From: Candidatus Nealsonbacteria bacterium RIFOXYB1_FULL_40_15
GTDB taxonomy: Bacteria > Patescibacteriota > Minisyncoccia > Minisyncoccales > GWA2-38-27
Assembly: GCA_001821555.1 (NCBI GenBank)
Contig: MHMM01000004.1
Coordinates: 111,525 to 152,338, forward strand
Length of the DNA stretch: 40,814 nucleotides
Direction: 5' to 3'
Positions within the stretch are counted from its first letter, which is position 1, and the number at the start of each line of letters is the position of its first letter. Positions 15,041-40,185 of the stretch are shown one piece after another. Both the position numbers and the translations under genes were made by a program. The notes below the pieces were generated by a model. The model had not been told where the DNA came from. It was given only the letters and a program-made list of their open reading frames with translations, and did not search any database.

Positions 15041-16885
15041 CTATTCCAGAACGGCTTTTATTCTTCTCACTCCAGCCGAAGACGATTCCTCTTTGAGGAT
15101 TTTAAAATGCCCGAGTTCTGAAGTCCTTTTAACATGCGGGCCTCCGCAAAATTCTTTGGACCAGGCGGAATCAATAGAACCGCCAATGTAATAAACATTT
15201 ACTTTCTCGCCGTACTTTTCTCCGAAAAAATGCAGAGCTCCGGTTTTCTCCGCCTCTTCCCTCAAAAGGGTTATTGATTCAACGGCCAGGTCCTCTTTAA
15301 TTTTTTTATTTACTATTTTTTCCACTCTCTCTATCTCTTTTTCGGTCATTTTCGCAGAATGAATAAAATCAAATCTTAAGCGTTCAGAGGTAATATTGCT
15401 CCCTTTCTGCCTTACATGTTCTCCCAGAACCTCGCGTAAAGCCCTATGAAGCAAATGAGTAGCCGTGTGGTATTTAATTTCCGCGTAACTGTGGCCGCCA
15501 AGCCCGCCTTTGAATTTTTGCTCGCTTCCGGATCTGGAAATCCTCTGATGATTTTCCAGATTTTTTCTGAACTTCGCTGTGTCAACGGACAGCCCTTTTT
15601 CTGCGGCAAGCTCTTGGGTCAATTCAAAAGGGAAACCGTAGGTTGTAAAAAGAATAAAGGGATCCGCGCCTTTTTCAAATTCCTTCAGTCCTTTGGTCAG
15701 AGTTTTTCTGAATCTTTTTTCTTCTTCGGATATTTCTTTTTTAATCTCTTCTGTTTTCAAATTTAATTCAGGATACGCATCCGAATACATTTCGGCCACT
15801 GTTTTTGCTAGATTCGCTAAAGTGCTTTTCATTATTCCCAAAGAATCAGCATATCTCACGCTTCTGCGTATAAGGCGCCTGACAAAATAGCCCCTATCTG
15901 TATTGGAAGGATAAACTCCGTCGGCAATAAGAAAAACAGCCGCTTTTATATGATCAGCAATAATTCTGAAAGATTTCGTCTCCTCGGCATTGTTTCCGTA
16001 TTTCTTGCCGGAAACATTTTCTATATAGTCCAATATGGGCCGATGATTGACCTCAATGACATCGGGGATGCCGCGCAAAGCCATGCCCATGCGTTCTAAA
16101 CCTCCTCCGAAGTCCACATTTCTTCTGGGCAGTTTTCCAAATGATCCGTCTGCATTTCTTACATATTCCATAAAAACAGAGTTCCCTATTTCCAAAAACC
16201 TTCCGCAATCGCAATTAGGGTGGCAATGCTTTCCAAACTTTTCGTCATGCTTTGTCTTAAAATCATAAAATATTTCAGAATCAGGCCCTCCCGGCTCTCC
16301 TCCGGGCATATTCTCCGGACAGCCCCATCTGCTCCACCAATTCTTATTTTTATCATAGTAAAAAATCCTCCCTCCCTGCATGCCGGTTTTGCTTCCATCA
16401 TCTTCTGAACCGATTAAAAGCTCTTTCGCCTCAATGCCTTTTTTTCTAAAAAGATCCTTCCAAATTTCCGCGGATTCATTGTCTTTAGGCAGACTGTTTG
16501 ATTCGTCTCCCATGAATACCGTCGTGTAAATCCTTTCGGGGTCCAACTTTAATTCTGAAACTAAAAATTCAAAAATCCAAGAGAGCTGTTCGCGCTTAAA
16601 ATAATCCCCAAAAGACCAGTTTCCAAGCATTTCAAAAAAAGTGGTATGCCTGTTGTCTCCCACTTCTTCAATATCCACGGATCTAAAGCTTTTTTGAGAA
16701 TCAGCGATCCTTTTCCCCAACGGATGGCTTTCACCTAGAAGATAAGGAACCATCGGCTGCATTCCGCTTCCGGTAAAAAGGGTGGTGGAATCATTTTCTG
16801 GAACCAAAGATGAAGAAGGAACAATTTTATGCCCCCTTTCTTTGAAAAATTCCAGAAATCTGTTTCTAATCTCCTTTGGATTCAT
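15041..16885 (-). CDS. alaS: Alanine--tRNA ligase, short form (catalytic + editing, no C-Ala region)
   Basis: NPKEIRNRFLEFFKERGHKIVPSSSLVPENDSTTLFTGSGMQPMVPYLLGE; editing-domain TATHLLHRALREVLG and CGGPHV; ends at 614 aa. Confidence 0.95.
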   Translation of the reverse strand: MNPKEIRNRFLEFFKERGHKIVPSSSLVPENDSTTLFTGSGMQPMVPYLLGESHPLGKRIADSQKSFRSVDIEEVGDNRHTTFFEMLGNWSFGDYFKREQLSWIFEFLVSELKLDPERIYTTVFMGDESNSLPKDNESAEIWKDLFRKKGIEAKELLIGSEDDGSKTGMQGGRIFYYDKNKNWWSRWGCPENMPGGEPGGPDSEIFYDFKTKHDEKFGKHCHPNCDCGRFLEIGNSVFMEYVRNADGSFGKLPRRNVDFGGGLERMGMALRGIPDVIEVNHRPILDYIENVSGKKYGNNAEETKSFRIIADHIKAAVFLIADGVYPSNTDRGYFVRRLIRRSVRYADSLGIMKSTLANLAKTVAEMYSDAYPELNLKTEEIKKEISEEEKRFRKTLTKGLKEFEKGADPFILFTTYGFPFELTQELAAEKGLSVDTAKFRKNLENHQRISRSGSEQKFKGGLGGHSYAEIKYHTATHLLHRALREVLGEHVRQKGSNITSERLRFDFIHSAKMTEKEIERVEKIVNKKIKEDLAVESITLLREEAEKTGALHFFGEKYGEKVNVYYIGGSIDSAWSKEFCGGPHVKRTSELGHFKILKEESSSAGVRRIKAVLE

Positions 16886-17394
16886 GAATATCTGTGTGCG
16901 ACCACTGAAGCTATGCAGGCTTCAGGCTTTATTTTCGGTTCAAATCCATTGCCCCTTATAAGGCCGGTAAGTTCTTTGACCATATTCTTTGTGGCTCCTT
17001 TTTCTCCTATGTCGGCGTGTATGTAATTAAATTCGTAGCTAAGGTTTTGTCCTTTCAACCTGTCTTCCAAAAGTTCTCTTAGGGATAATGCAAGATCGCA
17101 GGAAAGCAAAATCTCCTGGAGGATCCTGTTTCTCCAATTGACAAATCTCTTGTTGAAGTCTTCAGAATATCGCGTTCTTTTAAGAAAATACCTCCCACCC
17201 TCTCCTTTTCTTAAAACAGCCACTACAACCGGAAAATACGGCTCTGCAGTTGAAGCAGAATCGCATCCGACTATGACCTCGTAAGACATTTCTGGTCTTT
17301 CTTCCATATAGGATTCCATTTCTTCAAGCACCTGTTCTGCTGAAAGCATTCCTTTCGTAGGGTTATAGAATTTTTCCTGCCAAAAACCATTCAT
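16882..17394 (-). CDS. RNase H-like YkuK/DUF458-family protein
   Basis: MNGFWQEKFYNPTKGMLSAEQVLEEMESYM...YEVIVGCDSAST...YIHADIGEKGATKNMVKELTGLIRGNGFEPKIKPEACIASVVAHRYS. Internal ATG at 17394 preferred over ORF-track start at 17484. Confidence 0.75.
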   Translation of the reverse strand: MNGFWQEKFYNPTKGMLSAEQVLEEMESYMEERPEMSYEVIVGCDSASTAEPYFPVVVAVLRKGEGGRYFLKRTRYSEDFNKRFVNWRNRILQEILLSCDLALSLRELLEDRLKGQNLSYEFNYIHADIGEKGATKNMVKELTGLIRGNGFEPKIKPEACIASVVAHRYS

Positions 17395-17439
17395 GCTACT
17401 TTTATAGCAAAAAATACGGATTTCTTCAAATCTTTCCCC

Positions 17440-17469
17440 ATGAGCCTGGCTCATATGAGCCAGGCTCAT
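17440..17469. repeat. Perfect 30 bp palindrome ATGAGCCTGGCTCATATGAGCCAGGCTCAT
   Basis: Equals its own reverse complement; composed of two 15 bp units ATGAGCC(T/A)GGCTCAT, each itself an interrupted palindrome. Confidence 0.95.
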
Positions 17470-17507
17470 TTTGATACAGTGCATACAATCCTAGTTTAAT
17501 TTACAAT

Positions 17508-36276: not shown

Positions 36277-37335
36277 TCAAATTTTCAATTGTTCAACTAA
36301 CTGCTTTATAAGGAAGACTACGACAGGAGGAGGCATAAGACTGTAAGAAGGAATTCCGTTGTCATCTCCAACCTGCCACGGCTTTTCTTCTACCTTAATA
36401 TCCTTTCCTTCTCCTGAATAAACATATTCGGGCGTAATTTCGTAGCCGTCCAAAAACTCTTCTGCCTTGTCTGCCGGAACAGAATTTCTAAGCAGAACTT
36501 TTGGTATTCCATAAAGAGAAAATGCCTGCTTGATAAGGTATTCGTCTTTATCCAGTCTTTCTTTTATCGGCCCTATTCCAAGCTCGTCTCCTTCTTTCTG
36601 AACCAATCTTGGGCCCGAACATTCCGGATTGTCGCATTTCAAAAAGTATTCTCCTTTTTCATATTCCACCTCCTTGGTCGGCAAAAGCTTCAAATTTCTT
36701 GAAGTTTGGCACAAAGGACATATTCTTCTGTACTTTATCCTTTCGTCTATTACATTTTCAGGAACATCTATAAGAACAAGGATATCAGGGTCGTCTCTGT
36801 ATTCAATCAAATCCCTGAAAAATAAAGAGTATGAAACTTGATCAAGCTCTCTGGGAAAACCATCTATAAAAAGAGCTTTCTTCCCCCTTTTAGCTATCTC
36901 CCGTTTTGCAAGAGACAAAATAAGCTCCGAGGGGAGAAGTTTTGAAGTGCTCCTTGATTCCAAAGAAGACACTATCTCTTCTAAAGACATGAATCCTCTG
37001 TAATTCTTTTTCAAAAAGTTCAAAAGCTCTTCTTTTTTGGCAGGGTCCTGCAATTCTTTGTCTATATCTCTTATCATATCCCCTATTGAAAAATGCTCTA
37101 TTCTATCTTTATCCACCACCTCCTTAAGCATTTTTGCATAGGTGCCCTTGCCTGAATTTTTCTTGCCCAAAAGATATGCTATAAAAGTTTTATCCTTCAA
37201 ATATTTTCTCAATCTTTCTATTTCATCCCCCGCTTTAAGCTCAAAATACTTTTTCCTGTCTTCGGCCAAAGTAAGGTCAAACTTAGGAGAATCCTCAATC
37301 TTTGTTTTAAACAGCGGAAATTCCAAATCTTTCAT
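36277..37335 (-). CDS. Divergent adenylate kinase-like nucleotide kinase with extra N- and C-terminal regions
   Basis: FIAYLLGKKNSGKGTYAKMLKEVV (P-loop), ALFIDGFPREL, zinc-lid-like CPLCQTSRNLKLLPTKEVEYEKGEYFLKCDNPEC; start MKDLEFPLF at 37335. Confidence 0.75.
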   Translation of the reverse strand: MKDLEFPLFKTKIEDSPKFDLTLAEDRKKYFELKAGDEIERLRKYLKDKTFIAYLLGKKNSGKGTYAKMLKEVVDKDRIEHFSIGDMIRDIDKELQDPAKKEELLNFLKKNYRGFMSLEEIVSSLESRSTSKLLPSELILSLAKREIAKRGKKALFIDGFPRELDQVSYSLFFRDLIEYRDDPDILVLIDVPENVIDERIKYRRICPLCQTSRNLKLLPTKEVEYEKGEYFLKCDNPECSGPRLVQKEGDELGIGPIKERLDKDEYLIKQAFSLYGIPKVLLRNSVPADKAEEFLDGYEITPEYVYSGEGKDIKVEEKPWQVGDDNGIPSYSLMPPPVVVFLIKQLVEQLKI

Positions 37336-37348
37336 AAAATAATTGCGA

Positions 37349-37481
37349 AACAATAAAGTTTTTGGCAGCTTTCGCAGGCTTTTTGGCACGGTGTCGCCTA
37401 GGGCGACCAAAAGGCCGAGAATGCAGATAGCGAAAATCCGCTGGGATTTTAGACTATCGGTGCAAGAAAACTTTTATTGTT
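37349..37481. repeat. Structured element bounded by terminal inverted repeats
   Basis: AACAATAAAGTTTT ... AAAACTTTTATTGTT (one extra T); inside GTCGCC-tag-GGCGAC (37393-37407) and GATAG cg AAAATCC gctg GGATTTT aga CTATC (37426-37458). Confidence 0.75.
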
Positions 37482-37490
37482 GAGCTAATT

Positions 37491-38294
37491 TTAATAAGTA
37501 AACTTTATGTCTCCTGACTCTTTAGTTAATAATACTTCTATACCAAAATTTTCAAGTCTTTTCAATACTTCTTCTGAAGGATGCCCCCACTTATTCACCC
37601 CTACCGAAATAATGGCTTTTTTGGGAGAAACTTCTTCCAAAAACTCCTCTGTGCTAGATGTCTTGCTCCCATGATGGGAAATTTTTAGCAGATCAGCTTT
37701 GAGGTTATATCTTTCTAAAAGCTCCTTTTCTTTTTTTCCGGATATGTCTCCGGTCAAAAGAATAGAATGTTCTTTGATTTTAAGAAAGCCCGCGATAGAA
37801 GTGTCGTTGGAATCTTCTCCTAACTCTTCAAGGGGATGAATTATTTCAAGAAAGCTCTCTTGGGAAAGGACAATTTTCTGGCCTGATTTTGCAAGAATAA
37901 TATCAGAACCTTCTTCTCCGATCAATTCTTTCCATTCTTGCCAATCGGCAGTTTCTGTCTTGAATCCGGTCCACAAGATTCTCTTTACATTATAATTCCT
38001 TAAAACTTCCAATAACCCATACAAATGGTCTGAATCAGGATGAGTAAGAACAATAAGCTCTATGTCTCTGTCATAAAAAGGCATTTCGTTAGAAAGCTTT
38101 TCCAACACTTTTGCATCCGGTCCTCCATCAATGAGAACCTGGAATGTTTCTCCTATTTCAATATATATGCTGTCTCCCTGTCCTACGTCAAAAAAGATAA
38201 GCTCTATTTCCTCTTCTTTATCTTTGAGCCCAAAAAACAGCAAAACTAAAAATAAAGCAATTAAGAACAAGGAAATCAAAAGCTTTTTCTTCAT
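37491..38294 (-). CDS. ComEC/Rec2-like metallo-beta-lactamase fold protein, membrane-anchored or secreted
   Basis: N-terminal TM/signal; ELIFFDVGQGDSIYIEI...VLIDGGPDAKVLEKL...LIVLTHPDSDHLYGLLEVL...LLTGDISGKKEKELLE...ISHHGSKTSSTEEFLEEVSPKKAIISVG. Confidence 0.88.
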   Translation of the reverse strand: MKKKLLISLFLIALFLVLLFFGLKDKEEEIELIFFDVGQGDSIYIEIGETFQVLIDGGPDAKVLEKLSNEMPFYDRDIELIVLTHPDSDHLYGLLEVLRNYNVKRILWTGFKTETADWQEWKELIGEEGSDIILAKSGQKIVLSQESFLEIIHPLEELGEDSNDTSIAGFLKIKEHSILLTGDISGKKEKELLERYNLKADLLKISHHGSKTSSTEEFLEEVSPKKAIISVGVNKWGHPSEEVLKRLENFGIEVLLTKESGDIKFTY

Positions 38295-38310
38295 CTGATT
38301 TATGATAGCA

Positions 38311-38342
38311 CAAAAAAAGCTTCGCAGTCCTGCCGCGAAGCT
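38311..38342 (-). terminator. Rho-independent terminator of the 38368 gene
   Basis: Minus strand AGCTTCGC-ggcaggact-GCGAAGCT followed by TTTTTTTG. Confidence 0.85.
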
Positions 38343-38367
38343 AAGCTCCTCAAAGAGATTGCTCCTC

Positions 38368-38700
38368 TCAAATCCCCCATATTTCATTGAACGCTTTCAA
38401 GAGAGCGTCGGCAATCCTCATTGCCGACTCCCTTTCTTCCAGGGCCTTGGAGAGATTTCCATCGGCTTCTAAAAAATCTCTACTTTTCGCCGAAAGCAGG
38501 GAATTAAGTTTTTCATTGTCTTTCTCCAATCGCTCAATCCTAACTCTCTGAGCCTCATAAGCGCTCTCGAGTTGTAAAACCCTCTCCCGGAATACTCTAT
38601 TGTCAGCAAGAGCTTTTGAAACTTCAGCCACTAACCTTGCCCGATCTTCCCTTGATTCTCCCAATAATATCTCGAGTTGTCTTTTCGTCTGTAGTGCCAT
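38368..38700 (-). CDS. Small predicted coiled-coil protein, unknown function
   Basis: MALQTKRQLEILLGESREDRARLVAEVSKAL...LQLESAYEAQRVRIERLEKDNEKLNSLLSAK...; AAGGAG 7 nt upstream of ATG at 38700. Confidence 0.65.
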   Translation of the reverse strand: MALQTKRQLEILLGESREDRARLVAEVSKALADNRVFRERVLQLESAYEAQRVRIERLEKDNEKLNSLLSAKSRDFLEADGNLSKALEERESAMRIADALLKAFNEIWGI

Positions 38701-39020: not shown

Positions 39021-39174
39021 ATAAAAATAGGTTAAGCATTCTTATCGACCTTTTAGGAATTAAGGTATCTTTTTAATGCCTTATTATAGCTTAAATTAAG
39101 CAAGAAGGACAGTCAAGCCCCGTAGAAGAATTTTATCAGGAATCTTATCTGCTTAAAGCTAAGCTAAAATTTCT

Positions 39175-40185
39175 CTACGGGGCAAGCGGTTTTTTAACAA
39201 TAACAGCTCCTCCCAGCATTTCTTCTCCCCTGTAGAACACAACTGATTGGCCCGGAGTTATGGCTCTTTGCGGCTCTCTGAAAATAATCTTATTCTTCTC
39301 CAAAAGAGCATCCGAGGATTTATGCCTGTATCTTATTTTAGCTCCAACTTTAAGGGGAAACTTAGGTTCTTTTCCTGAAATCCAATTTTCGTTTTTAAAA
39401 ACCAGCTCCCTTGAAAAGAGATCTTCTTCGTTTCTAGAGACAATTACCGAATTATCTTTAATGTTTTTTTCTATAACATAGTAAGGCCCGCCAGAAAGCC
39501 CGATTCTTCTCCTTTGGCCTATGGTATAAAGCCAAAGCCCCTGATGTTCTCCTAGTACATTTCCCTCTTTATCAACGACATTGCCTTTATCTACGCCTAA
39601 ATTCTCTTTTAGGAATTCTTCTATATTAGAGGAGATAAAGCATATTTCCTGCGATTCCGGCTGGTTATAGACAGGGAGAGCTGATTTTCTCGCAATTTCT
39701 CTAACTTCTGATTTTTTGTATTCTCCCAAGGGAAACAATGTTTTCTTTAGAATATTCTGGCTTGATTTCCAGAGGAAATAGGATTGGTCTTTTTCTTTAT
39801 CTTCTGCCTCAAAGATCTTTCCTTCTTTAATCTTTACATAATGGCCCGTAGCCAAATAATCCGCATTAAACTTATCAAGGTTTTTAAAAAGAAGGTTAAA
39901 TTTTACAATTTTATTGCATAAAACGCATGGATTGGGGGTAAACCCTTCTTTATTATCCTTGATAAAAGAATCTATGATCTCTTTTTTAAACTCTTTCCTA
40001 TAATCCAAAACACAGAATTGTATTCCAATTCTTTCTGCCACCGATTTTACCCTTTTTTCGTTTTCAATATATCCTGAATGCAACCTAAAATGGACTCCGA
40101 TCGGGCAAAAACCTTCTTCTTTTAAAAGCAGTGCTGTAACAGAAGAATCCACTCCCCCGGACATTGCAACCAATACTGTTTTCAT
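39175..40185 (-). CDS. mnmA: tRNA-specific 2-thiouridylase MnmA
   Basis: TVLVAMSGGVDSSVTALLLKEEGF; TPNPCVLCNKIVKF; DYLATGHYVK; DQSYFLW; QPESQEICFI; GQRRRIGL. Confidence 0.95.
   Translation of the reverse strand: MKTVLVAMSGGVDSSVTALLLKEEGFCPIGVHFRLHSGYIENEKRVKSVAERIGIQFCVLDYRKEFKKEIIDSFIKDNKEGFTPNPCVLCNKIVKFNLLFKNLDKFNADYLATGHYVKIKEGKIFEAEDKEKDQSYFLWKSSQNILKKTLFPLGEYKKSEVREIARKSALPVYNQPESQEICFISSNIEEFLKENLGVDKGNVVDKEGNVLGEHQGLWLYTIGQRRRIGLSGGPYYVIEKNIKDNSVIVSRNEEDLFSRELVFKNENWISGKEPKFPLKVGAKIRYRHKSSDALLEKNKIIFREPQRAITPGQSVVFYRGEEMLGGAVIVKKPLAP

Follow-up and report, generated by a model that had tools for sequence, protein, structure and literature searches.

The intergenic DNA in front of an adenylate-kinase-like (ADK-like) gene of Candidatus Nealsonbacteria raises a simple question: does the strongly folded element found there regulate the gene that follows, or is it a repeat that arrived from elsewhere? 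The window, by which we mean the whole stretch of DNA analyzed (40,814 nucleotides), carries the element between two minus-strand genes. A metallo-beta-lactamase-fold (MBL), ComEC-like gene (37491..38387, -; PF00753) ends with its stop codon 5 nt from the element, and the ADK-like gene (36277..37337, -; PF00406) begins 7 nt beyond the element's other end, at an ATG (37335-37337) chosen to match the MKDLEFP start seen in relatives. The preliminary description of this locus had proposed a structured unit of ~133 bp, either a cis-regulatory RNA of the ADK-like gene or a MITE-like element. The structured element proved real, with a small correction to its extent: the true unit spans 37345..37485 (+), 141 bases, and is slightly longer because a GC/GC pair and a conserved tandem GA/GA mismatch close outside the earlier ends.

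The window element forms a closed three-way junction, with a long terminal helix that has the tandem GA/GA mismatch near its end, followed by two arms. The long helix previously drawn from the ends is indeed present. According to alignment pairing, its outer part joins 37345..37354 (+; GC, tandem GA mismatch, AACAAT) to 37476..37485 (+; ATTGTT, GA, GC), and it continues as an inner part (37358..37367 with 37461..37470, both +) with covariation in 9/9 pairs. The tandem GA/GA mismatch is found in 78 of 123 copies. Arm 1 consists of helices 3 and 4, an apical hairpin and a 7-nt bulge. Helix 3 pairs GCTTTC (37368..37373, +), which is followed by a near-invariant TCGCAG, with GAATGC (37419..37424, +), which is preceded by an invariant CGAGA. 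Helix 4 pairs GGCTTTTTG with CAAAAGGCC (37377..37385 with 37408..37416, both +; covariation in 8/9 pairs) and carries the bulge GCAYGGT (GCACGGT in the window; 37386..37392, +), near-invariant in the alignment. Both the intermediate helix 3 and helix 4 with its bulge had been overlooked, while the 6-bp GTCGCC/GGCGAC hairpin had been recognized correctly and tops the arm as GTCGCC-TAG-GGCGAC (37393..37407, +; arms 37393-37398 and 37402-37407). The same is true of the nested GATAG-AAAATCC hairpin, which makes up the whole of arm 2 (37426..37458, +), with the halves GATAG..AAAATCC (37426-37439) and GGGATTTT..CTATC (37443-37458), a conserved CGCTGG turn and a bulged A. Folded as RNA, the + strand, antisense to both flanking genes, reaches -54 kcal/mol (z = -4.9; none of 200 shuffles did as well), whereas the - strand is weaker (-42.7 kcal/mol, z = -4.1). 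Covariance model R1, built on a 19-sequence alignment that includes the window sequence itself, scores the window copy at 128.7 bits (E 3e-34 in the source genome). The element also holds a GGCATGGT string reminiscent of HDV; an HDV-like ribozyme was rejected, since the helices are nested and lack the HDV pseudoknot, and the relaxed Rfam matches to the window include no HDV family.

Comparison among family members revealed very strong structural selection on the element. In the alignment of 19 members, 204 compensatory cells were counted as opposed to 61 +/- 7 in shuffles, and 40 of 50 base pairs have changed on both sides among aligned members. Sliding the 3' partner by a single base lowers pairing from 95.6% to about 40-44%, and no slide of 1-3 bases leaves more than 43.5%. 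The loops TCGSAG/CGAGA, GCAYGGT and CGCTGG are near-invariant in the alignment while the helices vary. The mismatches are asymmetric: in pair columns of two model-fitted alignments, G.T outnumbers A.C (118:30 and 138:36) and G.A outnumbers T.C (72:3 and 101:6), and the ratios are 26:12 and 20:1, respectively, in a MAFFT alignment that was not fitted to the model. Moreover, the + strand gives the more stable fold in 58 of 60 copies. Together with the excess of G.T and G.A, this indicates that the maintained fold is that of the strand antisense to the genes.

We then asked how widely the element occurs. Searching 100 related genomes at the DNA level returned full-length homologues ~70% identical, with several per genome in some. 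Of 247 genomes of the order, 100 gave matches to the covariance model, with 1-13 copies each and a very patchy distribution; Candidatus Nealsonbacteria and Wildermuthbacteria are among the carriers. In the window's own family just 2 of 14 genomes have the element, and in a wider sample of the phylum 29 of 380 do. Further copies in the same genome had been named as a check for a MITE, but the source genome contains a single copy. No match was obtained in viral contigs scanned with a strict pattern, in plasmids and E. coli genomes searched with one family member, or in a phage collection searched with the window sequence. The earlier remark that the element belongs to no known riboswitch class was borne out by Rfam, where no family reached the gathering threshold and relaxed matches were at chance level (the only weak one of note being COG3860 RNA, E 0.55). 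In the open-access literature searched, we found no description of the element family or of such repeats in Patescibacteria, and the family is apparently unrecorded so far.

The mobility of the family is seen in the presence and absence of copies at orthologous sites. The window's MBL-ADK junction lacks the element in four family members (G003, G004, G007 and G008), where the gap measures from a few to ~20 nt; since the same gene pair exists without it, the window element is an insertion. In a further genome, G010, the junction holds an unrelated hairpin instead (L140). Similarly, no counterpart of copy G201:C1:71200 was found at the equivalent junction in those congeners that allowed a comparison. 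Several of these congeners (L150-L160) have other, unrelated hairpins at that junction, as judged by eye. Across different species the post-stop gap holds unrelated long hairpins (for example with TACGAAT-rich arms or a CGTCATTGCGAGG repeat), and in the G201 congeners and G010 hairpins of many families seem to take turns at one post-stop spot. In 30 of 78 cases a copy has its closest relative within its own genome, as opposed to 1.7 in shuffles, an excess that points to amplification within genomes; for example, G096 carries 6 copies that are 99% identical. Copies behind the same gene (rpsG, rplC, frr) in different genomes are mostly not mutual nearest relatives, with the exception of three rpsG copies at 0.77-0.86 identity, and insertion behind these genes thus recurs independently.

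In two genomes, G096 and G074, the element occupies the center of a ~235-bp MITE that has terminal inverted repeats, with ends GGGTAAAGT...ACTTTACCC (L097, L099, L203, L206, L207, L071). Most copies of this MITE are flanked by 7-bp AT-rich target duplications (AAATATA, AATAATA, TTTTAAA, TATTATT, TAATATA, TTTGATA). Its left end occurs at 9 places in these genomes; those read hold either the element or a version that lacks part of it, such as L060 with an internal deletion of the element, and no transposase was seen between the MITE ends at the places read out. The element proper shows no consistent target duplication, at most one weakly above chance: 5-bp flank repeats at one offset were observed 3 times against 0.1 expected, with many offsets tried. 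In the window, the weak candidate is TAATT, at 37340..37344 (+) on the left and 37486..37490 (+) on the right. The MITE with its clean duplications may be a different element that captured a family member. The MITE-like reading of the locus is largely upheld: the family is multi-copy and amplified in relatives, absent from orthologous sites and, in two genomes, contained in a MITE with 7-bp duplications, but the element itself lacks a consistent duplication and its covarying, strand-specific structure goes beyond an ordinary MITE. Some copies occur in composite arrangements. Head-to-head inverted pairs were seen at L107:8953-9256, L247:7305-7766 and L248:6353-6642, spaced by ~16 nt in two of the three and by ~160 nt in the third. 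At L122:8201, L115:6110 and L108:881, the element is nested within the loop of a shorter relative or immediately adjoins one; this relative shares the GCGAGG...CCGAGC ends and carries a GGAACCAC motif.

The placement of copies relative to genes, counted on simple ORF calls rather than curated genes, is far from even. An antisense gene has its stop codon 0-10 nt from the element's 3' end in 54 of 123 copies, while the mirror arrangement occurs in 2 of 123. Between co-directional genes, antisense copies outnumber sense ones by 64 to 14; of these 64, 44 are no more than 10 nt from the stop, compared with 19.8 expected if copies were placed uniformly in their own gaps. Flanking bases past the first ones hold no information that could represent a target motif for this position. 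Most of the genes that precede the copies are core genes: rpsG (6 among those scanned), rplC (4), frr (3), dnaK, secD, alaS and dnaB (2 each), as well as gyrA, nrdA, nusG, secY, GAPDH, TIM and more. Such a preference for a few core genes exceeds what neutrality alone would give and could mean a host function. Polarity matches the majority coding strand 67:11; because the directions of replication and transcription agree in most loci, the two are inseparable as causes of the orientation.

Among possible mobilizing enzymes, Y1 transposases (PF01797) were detected in 76 of 100 carriers and 56 of 147 non-carriers (odds ratio 5.1, with kinship ignored). There was no Y1 match in 24 of the 100 carriers, and no element copy at any of the 30 best Y1-transposase loci, so this enzyme only co-occurs statistically with the element, without physical linkage in those 30 loci. 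G084, a single-contig genome of the order that is not listed as a carrier, has 16 Y1 matches, eight of them almost identical and of IS200 type. Integron integrase did not exceed the cut-off in any of 20 carriers. Reverse transcriptase (PF00078) was detected in 7 of 20 carriers and is absent from G000; given this low share, a retroelement or reverse-transcriptase link was rejected as a general explanation.

Overall, we consider the element to be probably a copy from a non-autonomous, mobile, structured intergenic repeat family of Patescibacteria, akin to REP, ERIC and MITE sequences. The family is dispersed and amplifies within genomes, and its copies appear and disappear at orthologous sites. 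Compensatory mutation keeps one strand folded, namely the + strand of the window, which is antisense to the flanking genes. As to how such a family might work, the folded single strand would be recognized by a trans-acting enzyme when the element moves. Copies would last mainly behind stops, where, in gene-dense genomes, they spare both the upstream gene and the start region of the next one. The fixed orientation may result from one-strand insertion at replication or transcription forks, or from selection on the transcript. The window copy would have inserted into the narrow space that separates the MBL-fold gene from the ADK-like gene, and any effect on adk expression would be incidental.

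A riboswitch-like RNA in the leader of the ADK-like gene would account for a highly structured element 7 nt upstream of the start, but it is very improbable: the same gene pair does without the element in four family members, homologues adjoin unrelated genes, the strand present in the ADK mRNA would be the less stable, non-selected one, and Rfam gave no match at threshold. When relatives are compared as the preliminary description had recommended, the covariation is there and a conserved position upstream of the orthologous kinase is not, and the proposal of a cis-regulatory RNA for this gene is not supported. Even less credible is an integron-type attC site, a folded bottom strand behind a stop codon. 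Direct post-stop placement and selection on the antisense strand are just as in attC sites, yet the preceding genes are core genes in their chromosomal places rather than cassettes, only the element was inserted at the window junction, IntI stayed below the cut-off in all 20 carriers, and the sequence is far more conserved than among attC sites.

Two further explanations attribute a function to the copies themselves. Possible, if doubtful, is a host-adapted 3'-end element, in which a post-stop hairpin stabilizes the upstream mRNA or tunes ribosome release or operon expression ratios, as in some E. coli REPs, with mobility supplying the copies and selection retaining them. The tight placement behind core genes (rpsG, rplC, frr, dnaK, gyrA, secD, nrdA, alaS) and the other, unrelated hairpins that relatives often have at the same spot agree with this explanation, as does the finding that ribosomes can stall at some E. 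coli REPs located no more than 15 nt from a stop (PMC12306157). It is difficult to reconcile with a structurally selected strand that is antisense to the mRNA, and with patchy presence even in close relatives. The remaining explanation, a multi-copy non-coding RNA or ribozyme made from the + strand whose invariant loops act in trans, appears unlikely. The near-invariant internal loops (GCAYGGT, TCGSAG/CGAGA, CGCTGG), the compensatory changes and a G.T that is 2-4 times commoner than A.C in pair columns would all suit an RNA, and the G.T share of pairs (3-4% in the element and 6% in tRNAs from the same loci) is not decisive between RNA and single-stranded DNA. Against this stand the copies located inside operons on the antisense strand, the absence of the element from most genomes of the order and, at the window copy, the lack of a promoter-like site nearby.

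If the element is a mobile repeat, as we favor, it bears on a group with very small, gene-dense genomes in which small mobile repeats have been little described. The family offers a handle on how intergenic regions are colonized and on whether hosts make use of hairpins in operon expression, and the covariance model would allow several hundred copies to be annotated. It also calls for caution, as strong covariation and a leader position may both be features of a mobile repeat and do not amount to a riboswitch. The window contains other repeats as well. At 39117-39183, at the 3' end of the ORF 39175-40185 (-), lies a 19-nt inverted repeat with 89% complementarity (GCCCCGTAGAAGAATTTTA), a possible terminator or another hairpin, and a perfect 30-bp palindrome (ATGAGCCTGGCTCATATGAGCCAGGCTCAT) is found at 17440-17469, at the 5' end of the ORF 16882-17484 (-).

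Set beside known systems, the element lacks the defining properties of attC sites and riboswitches as well as the size and tag that define REPs, and it has only part of the properties of MITEs, namely terminal inverted repeats, small size, no coding content and dispersed copies with both filled and empty orthologous sites. We raise, tentatively and as rather doubtful, the idea that the candidate phyla radiation harbors a new class of mobile nucleic acid. Its members would be branched hairpins whose loops are invariant; an enzyme would recognize them as one folded strand, and they would be inserted with the same polarity each time behind the stops of highly expressed genes, possibly in connection with translation termination, transcription or the replication fork. 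Integron attC sites share with it a folded antisense strand directly behind a stop codon and differ by their integrase (none in 20 carriers here), their cassettes, their less conserved sequence and the absence of branching. REP/BIME/REPIN sequences of Gammaproteobacteria, with their RAYT transposases, are likewise dispersed intergenic palindromic repeats thought to move in trans, many within 15-20 nt of a stop codon and sometimes in inverted pairs. However, REPs are single hairpins of 20-40 nt with a GTAG (GTAG/GGAG) or CGTC tag and linked RAYT genes, whereas the element is a three-way junction of 130-145 nt flanked by only RA and G, with no tag and no RAYT found beside it. ERIC sequences come closer in size, being ~127-bp imperfect intergenic palindromes near gene 3' ends, where a review of MITEs notes effects of them (PMC10969869), with a mobilizer that is not identified. 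They reach tens to hundreds of copies in contrast to the low copy number seen here, and the element is branched, has conserved loops and a fixed orientation to genes, and showed no similarity in E. coli genomes. Finally, prokaryotic MITEs such as QMITE2 of Coxiella and the Correia elements are short and non-coding, with terminal inverted repeats and high turnover, and some families, QMITE2 among them, have a 3' untranslated location (PMC10969869); the element's place inside a MITE in G096 and G074 adds to this likeness. On its own it showed no consistent target duplication and, among the MITE copies read in G096 and G074, no parental transposon; a further difference is that its structure is kept by compensatory changes.
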